Shown here: positions 46,761 through 53,552 of the stretch, piece by piece | Layout of the letters: every line of letters begins with the position of its first letter | Position numbering within the stretch: the stretch's first letter is position 1 | From: Rhodocyclaceae bacterium | GTDB taxonomy: Bacteria; Pseudomonadota; Gammaproteobacteria; Burkholderiales; Rhodocyclaceae | Direction: 5' to 3' | NCBI GenBank assembly: GCA_018261935.1 | Contig: JAGTRP010000002.1 | Location: 186,001 to 250,000, forward strand | Length of the DNA: 64,000 nt | Translations under genes and position numbers: made by a program | Notes under the pieces: generated by a model | The model's input: only the letters and a program-made list of their open reading frames with translations | Databases searched by the model: none | What the model was told of the DNA's origin: nothing

Positions 46761-47314
46761 TGTGGAAGCTCGTTAAGCAGATTGTCAGAACCGGCGTGGT
46801 GACCGAACCGGCGCCGGTGCCGCCGGACGATTGCCGTCAGGAGGCCGAACGCATCCAGCGGGAAATCCTGCAGACCCTCGGCAAGGCCCTCACCATCCGG
46901 GAGGTGGATGCGGGCTCCTGCAACGGCTGCGAGCTGGAAATCCACGCCGTCAACAATCCCTACTACAACCTGGAAGGGCTGGGGATCAAGTTCGTCGCCA
47001 GCCCGCGCCACGCCGACATGCTGCTGGTCACCGGGCCGGTGTCCCGCAACATGGCGGTTGCCCTCAAGCGCACCTACGACGCCACGCCGGCCCCCAAGCT
47101 GGTGGTGGCGGTTGGCGACTGCGGCTGCGACGGCGGCATTTTCGGGGAGAGCTACGCCTGCGTCGGCAGCGTATCCCGGGTCATCCCGGTGGATCGGGTG
47201 GTGCCAGGCTGTCCGCCCGAGCCCATTGAGATCCTGCGGGCCATCCTGGCTACGGTCCGGGCCGGTTACCGCCAGAAAGACGAACCGGCTCCGGAAGTCA
47301 GCGTTTCTCCTTGA
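46760..47314 (+). CDS. hyfI: Hydrogenase-4 component I-like small subunit (NuoB-like, one 4Fe-4S cluster)
   Basis: A 184-residue electron-transfer subunit of the NuoB/HyfI family. The proximal cluster ligands are present: C54 and C57 (GSCNGCE), C121 in GDCGCDGG, and C151 in PGCPPEP. So the cluster site next to the large subunit is kept even though the Ni-Fe site is lost. An N-terminal amphipathic stretch may touch the membrane. The ATG overlaps the hyfG stop. Its own 3' end overlaps the convergent lutB by 17 bases. No ferredoxin-like hyfA/hyfH gene and no maturation genes follow. Confidence 0.92.
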   Translation: MWKLVKQIVRTGVVTEPAPVPPDDCRQEAERIQREILQTLGKALTIREVDAGSCNGCELEIHAVNNPYYNLEGLGIKFVASPRHADMLLVTGPVSRNMAVALKRTYDATPAPKLVVAVGDCGCDGGIFGESYACVGSVSRVIPVDRVVPGCPPEPIEILRAILATVRAGYRQKDEPAPEVSVSP

Positions 47315-48728
47315 GCAGATCCCGCAGGCGCCTGGGCGCCGGAGTCAGGGGCGTGCGCACCGAAGTCCAGCCAGCCTGCCGGGCAGGCGTCAGCCAGTTA
47401 AGGCGGCTGGCCAACCAGGAATAAACGCGATAAAGGGCCGGGTGGCCGTAGATGGCGGCCCAGGCCCGCCAGATGGCGGTCATCCAAGGACTGTAGCCGG
47501 CACCCTGGCCCTTGAGCCGGGCATCCGGACAGGGTTCTGAATAGACCTCGGTGCGCAGCCGGACGAGAAGATCCGGGATGGGGATATTCACCGGGCAGAC
47601 ATCGCCGCAGGCCCCGCACAGGCTGGAGGCGGATGGTAGGGCGGCAGTGGCTTCCAGGCCCAGGAGATGGGGGGAAATGATCTCCCCGATGGGACCCGGG
47701 TAGGTGGTGCCGTAGGCGTGGCCGCCGATGTGGGTGTAGACCGGGCAATGGTTCATGCAGGCGCCGCAGCGGATGCACTGCAGGGTCTGGCGCAGCTCCT
47801 CGTCGGCGAAGGGCTGGGTGCGGCCGTTGTCGAGGAGCACCAGGTGGACTTCCTCCGGGCCGTCCTTTTCCCCCGGCTGGCGGGGCCGGGAGATTATGTT
47901 GAAGTAGGTGGTGATGTTCTGGCCGGTGGCCGAGCGGGTGAGCAGGGACAGGAGGGGCGGCACGTGCTCCAGCTTCTCGATCACCTTCTCGATGCCGGTA
48001 ATGGCCACATGGACCTTGGGGACGGTGGTGGACAGGCGGCCATTGCCCTCGTTTTCGACCAGGCACAGGGTGCCGGTCTCGGCCACGGCGAAGTTGACGC
48101 CGGAGAGGCCGATGTCCGCTTCCAGGAATTTCTGCCGCAGCACCCGGCGGCCGATCTGGATGAGGGCATCCACGTCTTCAGTATAGGCCACGCCGGGAAT
48201 CTTCTCCTCGAAGAGGCGGGCGATCTGCGCCTTGGTCTTGTGGATGGCCGGCATGATGATATGGGAGGGCTTCTCGCCGGCGAGCTGGAGGATGTATTCC
48301 CCCATGTCGGTTTCGATGGCCTCGACCCCTGCCGCCTCGGCCGCGTGGTTGAACTCGATTTCCTCGCTGACCATGGATTTGCCCTTGACCATGCGTTTGG
48401 CGCCGTGCTTCTCGCAGATGGCGAGGATGATGCGGTTGGCTTCCTCCGGCGTTTCCGCCCAATGGACCTGGATGCCGTTGCGCACCAGGTTGGCCTCCAG
48501 TTGGGTCAGCAGGGCGGGCAGCTTGTCGAGGCTGTTCCGGCGGATTTGCTCTCCCAGGCGGCGCAGGCTTTCGAACTCATTGCCATCCGGGAACTGGGCA
48601 GCGCGCTTGGCCATGAGGAAATCCATGGCCCCCCGGAAGCTCTTTTGGAGAAAATCGTCCTCCACCACGGCTTTCGAGCGCTCCCGGAAACCAGTGGTCG
48701 GTATGTAATGGAGCGGCTGCCGGCTCAT
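47298..48728 (-). CDS. lutB: L-lactate utilisation iron-sulfur protein LutB
   Basis: Fe-S subunit of the LutABC L-lactate oxidising complex. The 476 residues contain an N-terminal LUD domain (about 60-300, KGKSMVSEEIEFNHA, AVAETGTLCLVENEGNGR) and a double 4Fe-4S ferredoxin domain: CIRCGACMNHCPVY at about 318 and CGACGDVCPV at about 369. The C-terminal tail (about 430-476) holds WLASRLNWL. It is last in lutA-lutC-lutB, with a four-base overlap to lutC. The final electron acceptor is not evident. Confidence 0.94.
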   Translation of the reverse strand: MSRQPLHYIPTTGFRERSKAVVEDDFLQKSFRGAMDFLMAKRAAQFPDGNEFESLRRLGEQIRRNSLDKLPALLTQLEANLVRNGIQVHWAETPEEANRIILAICEKHGAKRMVKGKSMVSEEIEFNHAAEAAGVEAIETDMGEYILQLAGEKPSHIIMPAIHKTKAQIARLFEEKIPGVAYTEDVDALIQIGRRVLRQKFLEADIGLSGVNFAVAETGTLCLVENEGNGRLSTTVPKVHVAITGIEKVIEKLEHVPPLLSLLTRSATGQNITTYFNIISRPRQPGEKDGPEEVHLVLLDNGRTQPFADEELRQTLQCIRCGACMNHCPVYTHIGGHAYGTTYPGPIGEIISPHLLGLEATAALPSASSLCGACGDVCPVNIPIPDLLVRLRTEVYSEPCPDARLKGQGAGYSPWMTAIWRAWAAIYGHPALYRVYSWLASRLNWLTPARQAGWTSVRTPLTPAPRRLRDLLKEKR

Positions 48729-49393
48729 GGCGCATCCTCCAGCAGCAGCACCACCAGTTCCTTGGGGCCGTGGGCTCCGTAGGCCAGGGTCTGCTGGATG
48801 TCGGCAGTCTTCGAAGGGCTGGAAATGAGGAGGGCGTTGGTCGGCATGCCGGCTGCCCAGTTTTCGGCCCGCAGGGCGTCGAAAAAGGTGGCGTGGATAT
48901 GGGCGGCGTCGACGAGGACAAAATGCACCGGCGGCACCAGGGACATCAGGCGGGGCTCGTGGGCGTCCGGCCAGAGGACCAGGGTGCCGGTTTCCGCGAT
49001 GGCGCTGCGGGCCGCGGTCAGGCTGGCCTGGACATGGTGGAACAATTCCGGCTTCCAGGCCTCGATGGGGCGGTCGTAGGCCAGGCAGGCGATGCCGCTG
49101 TTGGCCAACCCGTCCCGGGCGGCGCTGCCGTGGGCCGTGTCCGGGGCGATGAGCAGATTGCCGATGCTCTTGGCAGCCAGGATTTCCCGAAGCTTCTCCA
49201 CCCAGTTGTGGCGATCAACCCGGTGCACCTCGGCCCGGGCGCCTTCCATCATGGCGGCGAAACGCCGGGCCCGGCCATCGGCCGATTCGTTGCGGGCCCG
49301 GCTGGCGTACCAGTGTTCAGGCTCCGGTGCCGGAGACGGCTCCTTCGCCTGGACCGCGGTCAGGCGCTGCAAGATCCGGTCGCGGGCACTCAT
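48725..49393 (-). CDS. lutC: L-lactate utilisation protein LutC
   Basis: LUD-domain protein of the LutABC complex; 222 residues. The conserved AIAETGTLVLWPDAHEPRLMSLVPPVHFVLV is present, as is the C-terminal SPSKTADIQQTLAYGAHGPKELVVLLLE. It overlaps lutA and lutB by four bases each, so the three are coupled. No cysteine cluster is expected or seen. Confidence 0.93.
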   Translation of the reverse strand: MSARDRILQRLTAVQAKEPSPAPEPEHWYASRARNESADGRARRFAAMMEGARAEVHRVDRHNWVEKLREILAAKSIGNLLIAPDTAHGSAARDGLANSGIACLAYDRPIEAWKPELFHHVQASLTAARSAIAETGTLVLWPDAHEPRLMSLVPPVHFVLVDAAHIHATFFDALRAENWAAGMPTNALLISSPSKTADIQQTLAYGAHGPKELVVLLLEDAP

Positions 49394-50175
49394 CGGCTAC
49401 CTCCAGTCCGCTTCAGCAGAAAACTGGCGATATGCTCGCCGGGGAGGCTGAGCTGCCGGCGGCCTTCCTGCCGGTCCTGCCAGGCGGCGTGGCCCAGGAT
49501 GTTCATCAGGCAACCGCAATCGGCGCTGACCACCTTTTCGGCGCCGGTCGCTTTCAGGGCTGCCACCTTGTCCCGCACCATGGCGGCGGAAATTTCCGGA
49601 TGGCGCAGGGCAAAGGTGCCACCGAAGCCGCAGCATTCGGCTTCGTGGTCCTGCTGGGCGACGGTGACTCCGTCGAGCTTGTCCAGGAGGGCACGGCCGG
49701 TGACATGCGCTCCCATCTCCCGGCGGGCGGAGCAGGAGGTATGGAGCACGACCTTGGTGGGGCCGCTTGCATCCTTCGGCTCATAGCCCAGGACATGGAC
49801 CAGGAACTCGGTGAATTCGTAAATACGTCCGGACAGCGCCTCGGCCTGTTTCCTGGCTTCCGGCTCGCCGGCGAAGAAGCTCGGGTAGTGGTGCTTCATC
49901 ATGCCGGCGCAGGACCCGGAAGGAACCACCACCGGCCACGGCTCCGGAAAAAGGTCCAGTTGCCGGCGTGCCACCTGGCGGGCCTCGGCATGGAAGCCGC
50001 TGGTGTAGGCGGGCTGACCGCAGCAGGTCTGGTCCGCCGGGAAGTGGACAGTGACTCCCTCGCGCTCCAGGAGGCGGATGGCATCGAGCCCGGCTTCGGG
50101 GTAAAACTGGTCGATGACGCAGGTGGCGAAAAAGTAGACGTCCGTCGGTCGGCCTGGGGCCTGTCGGGGTTCCAT
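49390..50175 (-). CDS. lutA: L-lactate utilisation protein LutA (CCG-domain Fe-S oxidoreductase)
   Basis: First gene of the lactate operon, 261 residues. Two CCG domains carry the cysteine motifs that bind Fe-S clusters: FFATCVID, QTCCGQPAYTSG, LHTSCSARREMG and AECCGFGGTF, plus SADCGCLMN. Two starts are possible: ATG 50181 sits only two bases from GGAG, whereas ATG 50175 is eight bases from it, so I choose 50175. It is divergent from the FadR-family regulator gene, and the intergenic region holds two matching operators. Confidence 0.93.
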   Translation of the reverse strand: MEPRQAPGRPTDVYFFATCVIDQFYPEAGLDAIRLLEREGVTVHFPADQTCCGQPAYTSGFHAEARQVARRQLDLFPEPWPVVVPSGSCAGMMKHHYPSFFAGEPEARKQAEALSGRIYEFTEFLVHVLGYEPKDASGPTKVVLHTSCSARREMGAHVTGRALLDKLDGVTVAQQDHEAECCGFGGTFALRHPEISAAMVRDKVAALKATGAEKVVSADCGCLMNILGHAAWQDRQEGRRQLSLPGEHIASFLLKRTGGSR

Positions 50176-50226
50176 GGTCATGTCTCCGGATGGGTGGAAT
50201 CTGGGTGCGGAATCGGCGGTCGGTAA

Positions 50227-50241
50227 ATTGGTAAAACCAAT
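50227..50241. promoter_or_regulatory. Operator 1 (FadR/LldR-type palindrome)
   Basis: ATTGGT-AAA-ACCAAT, a perfect inverted repeat with a three-base centre. It lies about +10 to +24 relative to the start predicted from the lutA promoter, where bound protein would block it. The TGGT-N3-ACCA core matches FadR-family LldR operators. Confidence 0.75.
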
Positions 50242-50257
50242 GCCTCGTTACGGTCGA

Positions 50258-50286
50258 AATCTAAGGTATTACGTGGTTTGCGTCAA
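50258..50286 (-). promoter_or_regulatory. Promoter of lutA-lutC-lutB
   Basis: Reading the minus strand, TTGACG (50286-50281) and TAGATT (50263-50258) are separated by 17 bases, a good sigma-70 match. The start should be near 50251, leaving about 75 bases to lutA. Confidence 0.7.
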
Positions 50287-50308
50287 TGCGGCCAGAGCAA
50301 ACGGAGGC

Positions 50309-50338
50309 TTGCGCGGGGCATGGGAGGGCGGTTAGAAT
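50309..50338 (+). promoter_or_regulatory. Promoter of the regulator gene and ppsA
   Basis: TTGCGC (50309-50314) and TAGAAT (50333-50338) with an 18-base spacer. The predicted start near 50345 falls inside operator 2. The -35 is a weak match, so confidence is moderate. Confidence 0.5.
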
Positions 50339-50340
50339 GG

Positions 50341-50355
50341 CGTGGTCTTACCAAT
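50341..50355. promoter_or_regulatory. Operator 2 (FadR/LldR-type palindrome)
   Basis: CGTGGT-CTT-ACCAAT: the same TGGT-N3-ACCA core as operator 1, with one arm imperfect. Centre-to-centre distance to operator 1 is 114 bases. It covers the likely transcription start of the regulator gene, and lies at about -90 to -104 relative to the lutA start. Confidence 0.7.
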
Positions 50356-50376
50356 CCAGCGGTGTTTTTCCCTTCC

Positions 50377-51159
50377 ATGCCCCAGGCAAGATTGCAGGTT
50401 CCACGCATCTCCGATGCCATCGCTTCGTCCCTGGAGCGCCGCATCCTGGAGGGATCCCTCAAGCCGGGGGACCGCTTGCCGCCGGAGCGCGAACTGGCGG
50501 CGGACCTTGGGGTGTCGCGGCCGTCCCTGCGGGAGGCGATCCAGAAGCTGGCTTCCAAGGGCATGGTGCAAAGCCGCCAGGGTGGCGGCACCTACGTCAC
50601 CGACCGCCTGGAGTCGACTTTCTTCGATCCCTGGCGTGACATGCTGGGAGCCCATCCCAACCTGCGGGAGGATCTCCTCGAATTCCGCCGCATGCTCGAA
50701 GGACAAGCGGCCGAGTGGGCGGCAGAGCGGGCCACCGACGCCGATCTGGAGCGCCTGGAGAAAGCCTTCGCCGCCCTCGGCCGCGCCTTCGCCGAAAACG
50801 ACCTGGACCAACGCTCGGCCTGTGACATCGCCTTCCACCAGGCTGTTTCGGAAGCCTCCCATAACGCCCTCATCGGCCACCTGGCCGCAGCCATGCTGCG
50901 CCTCATGCAGGACAATATCCGCCTCAACCTCGGGGAACTGCGGGCCGTTCCGGGGGCGGCGGATGTGCTCCAGAACCAGCACCAGGCCCTGTTCGACGCC
51001 ATCCGCGAACACAGACCGGCAGCCGCCCGGGCGGCTGCCCAGACCCATATCGATTTCGTCCAGGAAACCCTGGCCCAGTCCCTGCGCTCGGTAGCGCGGC
51101 GGGAAAGCGCCGCACGCCGCCTGGGCACCGATTTTTCCAGTACTCCAACCATTGATTAA
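50377..51159 (+). CDS. lldR: FadR-family (GntR) transcriptional regulator, LldR/LutR-like
   Basis: A 260-residue GntR regulator. An N-terminal winged helix (about residues 12-75: [25 protein letters not shown], then [14 protein letters not shown]) is followed by an all-helical FCD effector domain (about 95-235) with metal-site residues in [14 protein letters not shown]. Divergence from lutABC and the LldR-type operators argue that it senses L-lactate and represses lutABC; this is inference from context. The ATG at 50377 gives the normal length; the open frame upstream crosses the promoter. It ends 17 bases before ppsA. Confidence 0.88.
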
Positions 51160-51176: not shown

Positions 51177-53552
51177 ATGCAGCCTTACGTCATCCCCTTT
51201 GAACAGCTGCGAATGACCGATGTGGAGCAGGTCGGCGGCAAAAACGCCTCCTTGGGCGAAATGATCAGCCAGCTGGCAGGGTCCGGCGTGCGGGTGCCCG
51301 GCGGCTTTGCCACCACGGCCAAGGCCTATCGGGATTTCCTCGCCCAGAGCGGCCTCGATGCCCGCATCAACGCCCTCCTGGAAAAGCTGGATGTGGATGA
51401 CGTCAACGCCTTGGCGGAATGCGGCCGTACCATCCGCGACTGGATCGTCGAGACCCCTTTCCCGACCCAGCTGACGGTTGAAATTACGTCGCAATATCAG
51501 CGGCTTGTGGCGGATTCTTCAAGCGATATGTCGTTTGCCGTGCGCTCCAGCGCCACCGCCGAAGATCTGCCGGATGCTTCCTTTGCCGGCCAGCAGGAAA
51601 CCTTCCTCAACATCGTCGGCCTGGAAAACATCCTCCACGCCATCAAGGAAGTCTTCGCCTCCCTGTACAACGACCGCGCCATCTCCTACCGGGTGCACAA
51701 GGGCTTCATCCATGCCGACGTGGCCCTGTCCGCCGGTATCCAGCGCATGGTGCGCTCCGATAAGGGCGCGGCCGGCGTCATGTTCACCCTGGATACCGAA
51801 TCCGGTTTTCGGGATGCCGTCTTCGTCACCTCCAGCTACGGCCTCGGCGAAACCGTCGTCCAGGGGGCTGTGAACCCGGACGAGTTCTACGTCCATAAGC
51901 CCATGCTGGCAGCCGGCAAGCAGGCCGTGGTGCGCCGCAACCTGGGCTCCAAGATGATCAAGATGGTCTTCGCCGCCGAGAAGGTAGCGGGCAAGTCCAC
52001 CATCATCCAGGACGTGGAAGAGTCCCTGCGCACCCAGTTCTCCATCAACGACGCGGAAGTGATGGAACTGGCGCGCTACGCCATGATCATCGAAAAGCAC
52101 TACCAGCGCCCCATGGACATCGAATGGGGCCGCGACGGCGTCGACGGCAAGCTGTACATCCTCCAGGCCCGCCCGGAAACGGTGCAGTCCCAGACCGGTG
52201 CCGGCCGCATCGAGAAGTTCAAGCTCAAGCAGTTCTCCAAGGTGCTGGCTTCCGGCCGCGCCATCGGCCAGAAGATCGGCATCGGCCCGGTGCGGGTGGT
52301 CAGCGATCCCAAGGAAATGGACAAGGTCCAGCCCGGCGACGTGCTGGTGGCTGACATGACCGACCCCAACTGGGAGCCGGTGATGAAGCGGGCTGCCGCC
52401 ATCGTCACCAACCGGGGCGGCCGCACCTGCCACGCCGCCATCATCGCCCGGGAACTGGGCATTCCGGCCATCGTCGGCTGCGGCGACGCCACCTCCACCC
52501 TCACCGAGGGCGACATCGTCACCGTCTCCTGTACCGAGGGCGACACCGGCCATGTCTATCGCGGCAAGCTGGATTACGAAGTCATCACCCGCGACATCTC
52601 CGCCATGCCGCAGGTGCCGGTCAAGGTCATGATGAACGTCGGCAATCCGGAACTGGCCTTCGAGTTCGCCCAGCTGCCCAATGGCGGTGTCGGCCTGGCC
52701 CGCGTGGAATTCATCATCAACAACGTCATCGGCATCCACCCGAAGGCCATCCTCGATGTGGAGCGCCTGCCGGCTTCCAAGCGCGAGGAGATCAAGCGCC
52801 GCGCCCAGGGCTACGCCACGCCCAAGGACTTCTTCGTGGAGAAGCTGGTGGAAGGCGTTTCCACCATCGCCGCCGCCTTCTGGCCCAACCCGGTGATCGT
52901 CCGCCTCTCCGACTTCAAGTCCAACGAGTACCGCAAGCTCCTGGGCGGCGAACTCTACGAGCCGGAAGAGGAAAACCCGATGCTGGGCTTCCGGGGTGCT
53001 TCCCGCTACATCGCCTCCACCTTCCGCGACTGCTTCGAGCTGGAGTGCCGCGCCATGAAGAAGGTGCGGGATGAGATGGGCCTTACCAACGTGCAGCTGA
53101 TGGTCCCCTTCGTGCGCACGGTGGAAGAGGGGGCCGGCGTCGTCAAGCTCCTGGCCGAGCATGGCCTGAAGCGGGGCGAGAACGACCTCAAGCTCATCAT
53201 GATGTGCGAGATCCCGTCCAACGCCCTGCTGGCCGAGGCTTTCCTGGAGCACTTCGACGGCTTCTCCATCGGCTCCAACGACCTGACCCAGCTCACCCTC
53301 GGCCTGGATCGGGATTCGGGCCTGGTGGCCAACCTGTTCGACGAGCGGGATCCGGCGGTGAAGATGCTGCTGGCCATGGCGATTGCCGCCTGCAACAAGC
53401 AGGGCAAGTACATCGGCATCTGCGGCCAGGGCCCCTCCGACCACCCGGACCTGGCTGAATGGCTGATGGATCAGGGTATTTCCAGTATCTCCCTCAACCC
53501 GGACACGGTGGTGGATACTTGGACCCGGCTGGCCCAGCACAAGAAGAACTGA
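51177..53552 (+). CDS. ppsA: Phosphoenolpyruvate synthase
   Basis: Converts pyruvate, ATP and water to PEP, AMP and phosphate for gluconeogenesis. The 791-residue protein has an N-terminal ATP-grasp domain ([20 protein letters not shown]), the phosphorylated His419 in [15 protein letters not shown], and a C-terminal TIM barrel with [14 protein letters not shown] and [16 protein letters not shown] precedes the ATG. It follows the lactate regulator gene closely, fitting a lactate-to-PEP route. It is the expected target of PpsR encoded at 35.8 kb. Confidence 0.98.

Follow-up and report, generated by a model that had tools for sequence, protein, structure and literature searches.

The 64,000-nucleotide stretch of Rhodocyclaceae DNA analysed here (the window) contains a lactate oxidation operon of the LutABC type and, divergent from it, the gene of an FCD-type GntR regulator, with two palindromic sites lying in the region between them. 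This layout raises the question of whether the two sites work together through a DNA loop, as the initial annotation had proposed by likeness to E. coli lldPRD, or whether each of them serves the promoter next to it. From the comparison of related loci, we consider it probable that the locus is a self-regulated divergon with two separately placed operators, each at its own promoter, for which no fixed loop is required. The arrangement looks more like an ordinary self-regulated divergent operon pair than a sign of DNA looping, and the system is of a known kind.

Table 1. Coordinates of the genes, operators and predicted promoter elements in the window.
Feature	Position	Strand	Remarks
lutB	47298..48728	-	TIGR00273, above its cut-off
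lutC	48725..49393	-	LUD domain; domain match
lutA	49390..50181	-	CCG cysteine-rich domain protein, first lut operon gene; domain match
Third half-site GGT	50222..50224	+	Direct repeat of the site 1 GGT (50230-50232), 8 bp apart (GGTAAATTGGTAAAACC)
Site 1, lut-promoter operator	50227..50241	-	ATTGGTTTTACCAAT toward lutA; 0 mismatches; counterpart in 127 paired loci
Predicted lut -10, TAGATT	50258..50263	-	16 bp before site 1
Predicted lut -35, TTGACG	50281..50286	-	17-bp spacer
Predicted regulator -35, TTGCGC	50309..50314	+	Spacer of 18 bp; most close relatives have 17 bp
Predicted regulator -10, TAGAAT	50333..50338	+	2 bp before site 2; same distance in 39 threshold-passing loci
Site 2, probable autoregulatory operator	50341..50355	+	CGTGGTCTTACCAAT; over the predicted regulator transcript start
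GntR/FCD regulator, FadR subfamily	50377..51159	+	260 aa; PdhR-like head; FCD D150 H154 H202 H224
ppsA, PEP synthase by sequence reading	51177..53552	+	17 bp after the regulator stop codon

Two palindromic sites between lutA and the regulator gene

The intergenic region between lutA on the minus strand and the regulator gene on the plus strand holds site 1, ATTGGTAAAACCAAT, and site 2, CGTGGTCTTACCAAT, which are 114 bp apart from start to start; both palindromes and their distance had been annotated correctly. Site 1 is a perfect copy of ATTGGTNNNACCAAT, and site 2 has two mismatches to it, both in the outer arm, leaving the TGGT-N3-ACCA core unbroken. Site 1 is the sole perfect copy in the whole genome (4.06 Mb), where the pattern scan further gave 1 site with one mismatch and 46 with two mismatches, site 2 among them, amounting to 48 matches compared with 28 for the reversed control pattern. 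The single one-mismatch site was considered as a sign of a wider regulon, and it was taken as a chance match near an apparent helicase gene.

Palindromes of this kind could in principle be functionless matches. Of 100 shuffled versions of the window, 30 contained at least two matches at the stringency of the pair (a count of the pattern only), which makes the pair weak when it is considered alone. The initial annotation had suggested phylogenetic footprinting of the intergenic region, and this comparison was made over 150 loci with relatives of the regulator, including the window's own, 146 of them in genomes of the window's family and 4 in other members of the class; the regulator search of genome contigs gave matches in Dechloromonas, Azonexus, Propionivibrio and Accumulibacter. 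Of the 150 loci, 127 have the site pair ahead of the orthologous regulator gene. Furthermore, at least two sites lie within 350 bp upstream of this gene in 124 of the 147 loci with enough upstream DNA, while none of the 147 control stretches taken 600-950 bp upstream and only 4 of 735 shuffles contain as many. Because of this conservation (124/147 against 0/147), the pair must be regarded as real and beyond chance, and with 127 loci keeping it at a fixed distance from the promoters, the explanation by chance is refuted for practical purposes. Judged from these sequences, the adjacent regulator very probably uses both sites as operators, one for each of the divergent promoters.

Operator spacing and distances to the promoters

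The search for a lut promoter gave TTGACG-17-TAGATT on the minus strand as the only sigma-70-type match within positions 50000-50600. The transcript start predicted from this match puts site 1 at about +10 to +25, which bears out its earlier placement just past the lut start. A sigma-70-type search was also applied to both flanks of each of the 127 pairs and compared with shuffled flanks, using 95% of this null as the threshold. On the lut side, 113 of the 127 pairs scored above the threshold; on the regulator side, 67 of 127 did so, the -10 element being weak or missing in part of the pairs. In 62 of these 67 loci with a good promoter match, the distance from the end of the regulator -10 to site 2 lies between -3 and +3 bp; where the lut promoter is of the window's type, it is mostly -1 to +2 bp. 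Among the loci that share the window's lut promoter architecture, the lut -10 ends 14-17 bp before site 1 (SD 0.79, 66 loci); for two other architectures this distance is 6-11 bp. These conserved, promoter-locked positions agree with the original view of two divergent promoters with a site at the start of each.

In contrast, the spacing between the two operators in the 66 loci with the window's architecture ranges from 107 to 185 bp (SD 25.6). Since this spacing varies while the distance from the -10 element to the operator is nearly fixed, insertions and deletions fall between the two promoters. In 89 divergons with lutA, the inter-site distance follows the intergenic length with r = 0.89 (kinship ignored). 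For double sites of the FadR subfamily, it is this relation that separates cooperative from separate sites (Suvorova et al. 2015, PMC4494728), and in 71 of 100 cases of the subfamily each site was read as controlling its own operon (PMC4494728). The correlation therefore assigns the present locus to the "separate" double-site class of PMC4494728. As in the divergons of that study, the regulator is divergent from its target, two sites lie in the intergenic region and their distance grows with the intergenic length. The study worked from gene starts; the present sites keep, in addition, a fixed position to predicted -10 elements, and an extra half-site accompanies the lut operator.

According to the loop proposal, dimers bound at both sites would associate, bend the intervening 114 bp and thereby shut both promoters. 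A stereospecific loop of about 100 bp is expected to favour spacings in one helical phase. It speaks for such a loop that most loci keep two sites, and that E. coli lldP has two operators as well, spaced 126 bp compared with 114 bp here. In addition, GdhR and C. glutamicum LldR form two complexes, maybe a dimer and a tetramer (PMC6957213). The spacings of one clade (161-164, 174, 175 and 185 bp) are about one helical turn apart (163, 174-175, 185) and show weak phase clustering (Rayleigh p ~0.014), these values being related and non-independent. However, the spacing over all loci extends from 95 to 259 bp, and no helical preference at 10.5 bp was found among the distinct spacings of all loci (Rayleigh p 0.59); with repeats kept, p is 0.008 over all loci, spacings being shared by close relatives. 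A clade with 11 distinct spacings shows no phasing either (p 0.31), and close relatives have spacings of 110 and 114 bp, almost half a turn apart. Moreover, insertions and deletions occur between the promoters and none between promoter and operator, and among more distant relatives with a divergent lutA a single operator occurs. We therefore regard a repression loop as improbable.

The likeness to lldPRD, which also has an FCD regulator by lactate oxidation genes, fails at a second point. Both E. coli sites (ATTGGCCCTACCAAT and ATTGGCAGTGCCACT) lie upstream of lldP and thus of one operon, while at the present locus each operator belongs to its own promoter, site 2 to that of the regulator, and the spacings show no overall helical phase. 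What stands of the initial annotation is two operators at two divergent promoters, both conserved and promoter-locked; the lldPRD-like loop, which should favour phased spacings, is not supported. A loop model derived from one spacing is thereby replaced by a test over more than 120 loci, in which the operators follow the promoters and not each other.

In the favoured arrangement of separate operators, the regulator would bind both sites as a dimer. At site 1, just past the lut start, the bound repressor would block lutACB, and at site 2, over the start of the regulator transcript, it would limit the regulator, in the manner of autoregulation, together with the probably co-transcribed ppsA. Lactate, or possibly pyruvate, would enter the FCD domain and cause release of the repressor, LutABC would oxidize lactate to pyruvate, and PpsA could turn pyruvate back to PEP. 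Since E. coli LldR has been called a dual regulator, activation of lut may, by analogy, come in besides repression. A comparable operator position is found in the betaproteobacterium Neisseria gonorrhoeae, whose GntR repressor GdhR represses the lactate gene lctP; the inverted repeat there lies 9 bases past the start (PMC6957213). GdhR differs in having a single site, a lactate permease as its target and DNA binding that is unaffected by L-lactate (PMC6957213).

The regulator, its putative effector and the neighbouring genes

Downstream of the regulator gene, the 17-bp gap to ppsA contains neither a forward-strand promoter nor a terminator. The order of regulator and ppsA is kept in 34 of the 55 loci with enough DNA, including some with a divergent gene other than lutA. 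Because of this adjacency and the conserved order, the regulator and ppsA are probably part of the same operon, which suggests that lactate oxidation and PEP synthesis are linked by one operon. E. coli PdhR binds upstream of lldP and of ppsA/ppsR (PMC7660256); together with the conserved gene order, this makes it probable that site 2 limits ppsA as well as the regulator. One regulator linking lactate oxidation with PEP synthase is thus suggested for this lineage.

In four loci, the paired operators are accompanied by a ppsR-like gene (a PEP synthase regulatory protein by sequence reading) that replaces the divergent lutA, and two of these have the regulator followed by ppsA opposite the ppsR-like gene. 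Six further loci with a spacing of about 97 bp have divergent genes that were read as a TRAP transporter and not as lutA, possibly a lactate uptake system. LldP lactate permease (PF02652), considered as a further target, is absent from the window's genome, which is given as 100% complete; if LutABC is used, lactate would therefore have to come in through a different carrier.

The regulator exceeds the Pfam cut-offs for GntR (85 bits, cut-off 27) and FCD (91.1 bits, cut-off 24.3), which places it in the FadR subfamily. Within the subfamily, it stays below the equivalog cut-offs of both PdhR (NF007001, 238.5 bits with a cut-off of 330) and LldR (NF007741, 192.6 bits with a cut-off of 311). Its helix-turn-helix end (the first 78 residues) is identical to that of PdhR at 44 of 78 positions and to that of LldR at 36 of 74, and the recognition region is nearly identical to that of E. 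coli PdhR. The operators show the same tendency. The boxes described for PdhR, (A)ATTGGTnnnACCAAT(T) (PMC7660256), and for LldR, AAnTGGTCnGACCAnTT (PMC10272880), have a common core, and the two sites fit the PdhR box at least equally well: site 1 has all 12 inner letters and site 2 the GGTnnnACC core. Furthermore, many relatives have a site 1 with exactly the sequence of the E. coli pdhR operator, ATTGGTAAGACCAAT, which lies upstream of that gene. The earlier description of the sites as "LldR-type" is thus right in that they are operators of the FadR type, and the LldR label is imprecise, given the fit to the PdhR box and scores of 238 and 193 bits that both lie under their cut-offs. By function, the regulator does resemble LldR in being adjacent to a lactate oxidation operon, with lutA, lutC and lutB divergent from it.

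These likenesses bring up the alternative that the regulator is a true PdhR orthologue, which would sense pyruvate and control lactate oxidation and ppsA via the pyruvate level. The model score above that of LldR, the helix-turn-helix identity and the operators of PdhR-box type all point this way, as do the adjoining ppsA, the few relatives with a divergent ppsR-like gene and the E. coli PdhR targets lldPRD and ppsA/ppsR (PMC7660256). In the FCD domain, however, the window's regulator and 52 of 55 relatives have the D-H-H-H set, which E. coli LldR and GlcC share. E. coli PdhR instead aligns with V-Q-R-H at the same four positions; the V and the Q are clear, and the R may be a one-place alignment slip. 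By analogy to the C. glutamicum LldR structure, D150, H154, H202 and H224 are presumed to be the metal site of the FCD domain. The score of 238 bits falls short of the required 330, and in the protein tree, whose long branches leave the placing relative to E. coli PdhR and LldR loose, the regulator does not join E. coli PdhR. Moreover, Pseudomonas regulators of lldP that bear the name PdhR respond to lactate but not pyruvate (PMC8827060), so that the name PdhR gives no guidance to the ligand. Pyruvate sensing by a PdhR orthologue consequently appears rather unlikely, if somewhat less so than a loop. The regulator would also differ from E. coli PdhR in its target, here lutACB and probably ppsA, and in the D and H of the FCD domain, kept here and replaced there.

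Returning to a regulator of lactate oxidation, we favour lactate as the effector, as the lut operon adjoins the regulator gene. A similar case is described in PMC8827060 for Cupriavidus necator, where CnGntR, a betaproteobacterial FadR-subfamily regulator, stands beside a LutABC-type operon for a three-component Fe-S lactate dehydrogenase that is induced about 24-fold by L-lactate. Two other FCD regulators of the window's genome were considered as the binder of the operators and rejected; both are distant, one lying beside a probable acetate symporter and the other among aromatic-ring-cleavage genes by sequence reading.

A third half-site beside the lut operator

A third half-site lies next to site 1 on the lutA side; read in that direction, it has the conserved form ...ACCAATTTACC, which in the window consists of site 1, three bases and CC, i.e., ATTGGTTTTACCAATTTACC. 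Counted from the operator's first base, this CC stands at +18 and +19, and two promoter architectures have it in 67 of 68 and 26 of 26 loci, respectively, with an equal distance to the operator although the second has its promoter about 7 bp nearer. None of these loci has CC at site 2, and in a third architecture it occurs at site 1 in 5 of 16 loci.

The related GntR protein NanR binds GGTATA repeats as three dimers (PMC8012715), and the GdhR footprint at lctP, from +6 to +48, is wider than one palindrome (PMC6957213). On the basis of these two cases, the lut side could, by analogy, bind a second dimer. We tentatively propose, as a reading that is more doubtful than that of two separate operators, that the lut operator is a compound one, with the palindrome and a third half-site at an 8-bp period on the lut side only, where a second dimer or a tetramer might assemble and hold lut more tightly than regulator-ppsA. 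Such an assembly on a repeat operator would resemble that of NanR, the present regulator being without the N-terminal extension of NanR. Standard palindrome searches would miss this conserved element on the lut side.

As a separate observation on the regulator side, site 2 is followed after 18 bp by a third complete operator in 12 loci of one clade, and one more locus has a further full operator 21 bp past this site.
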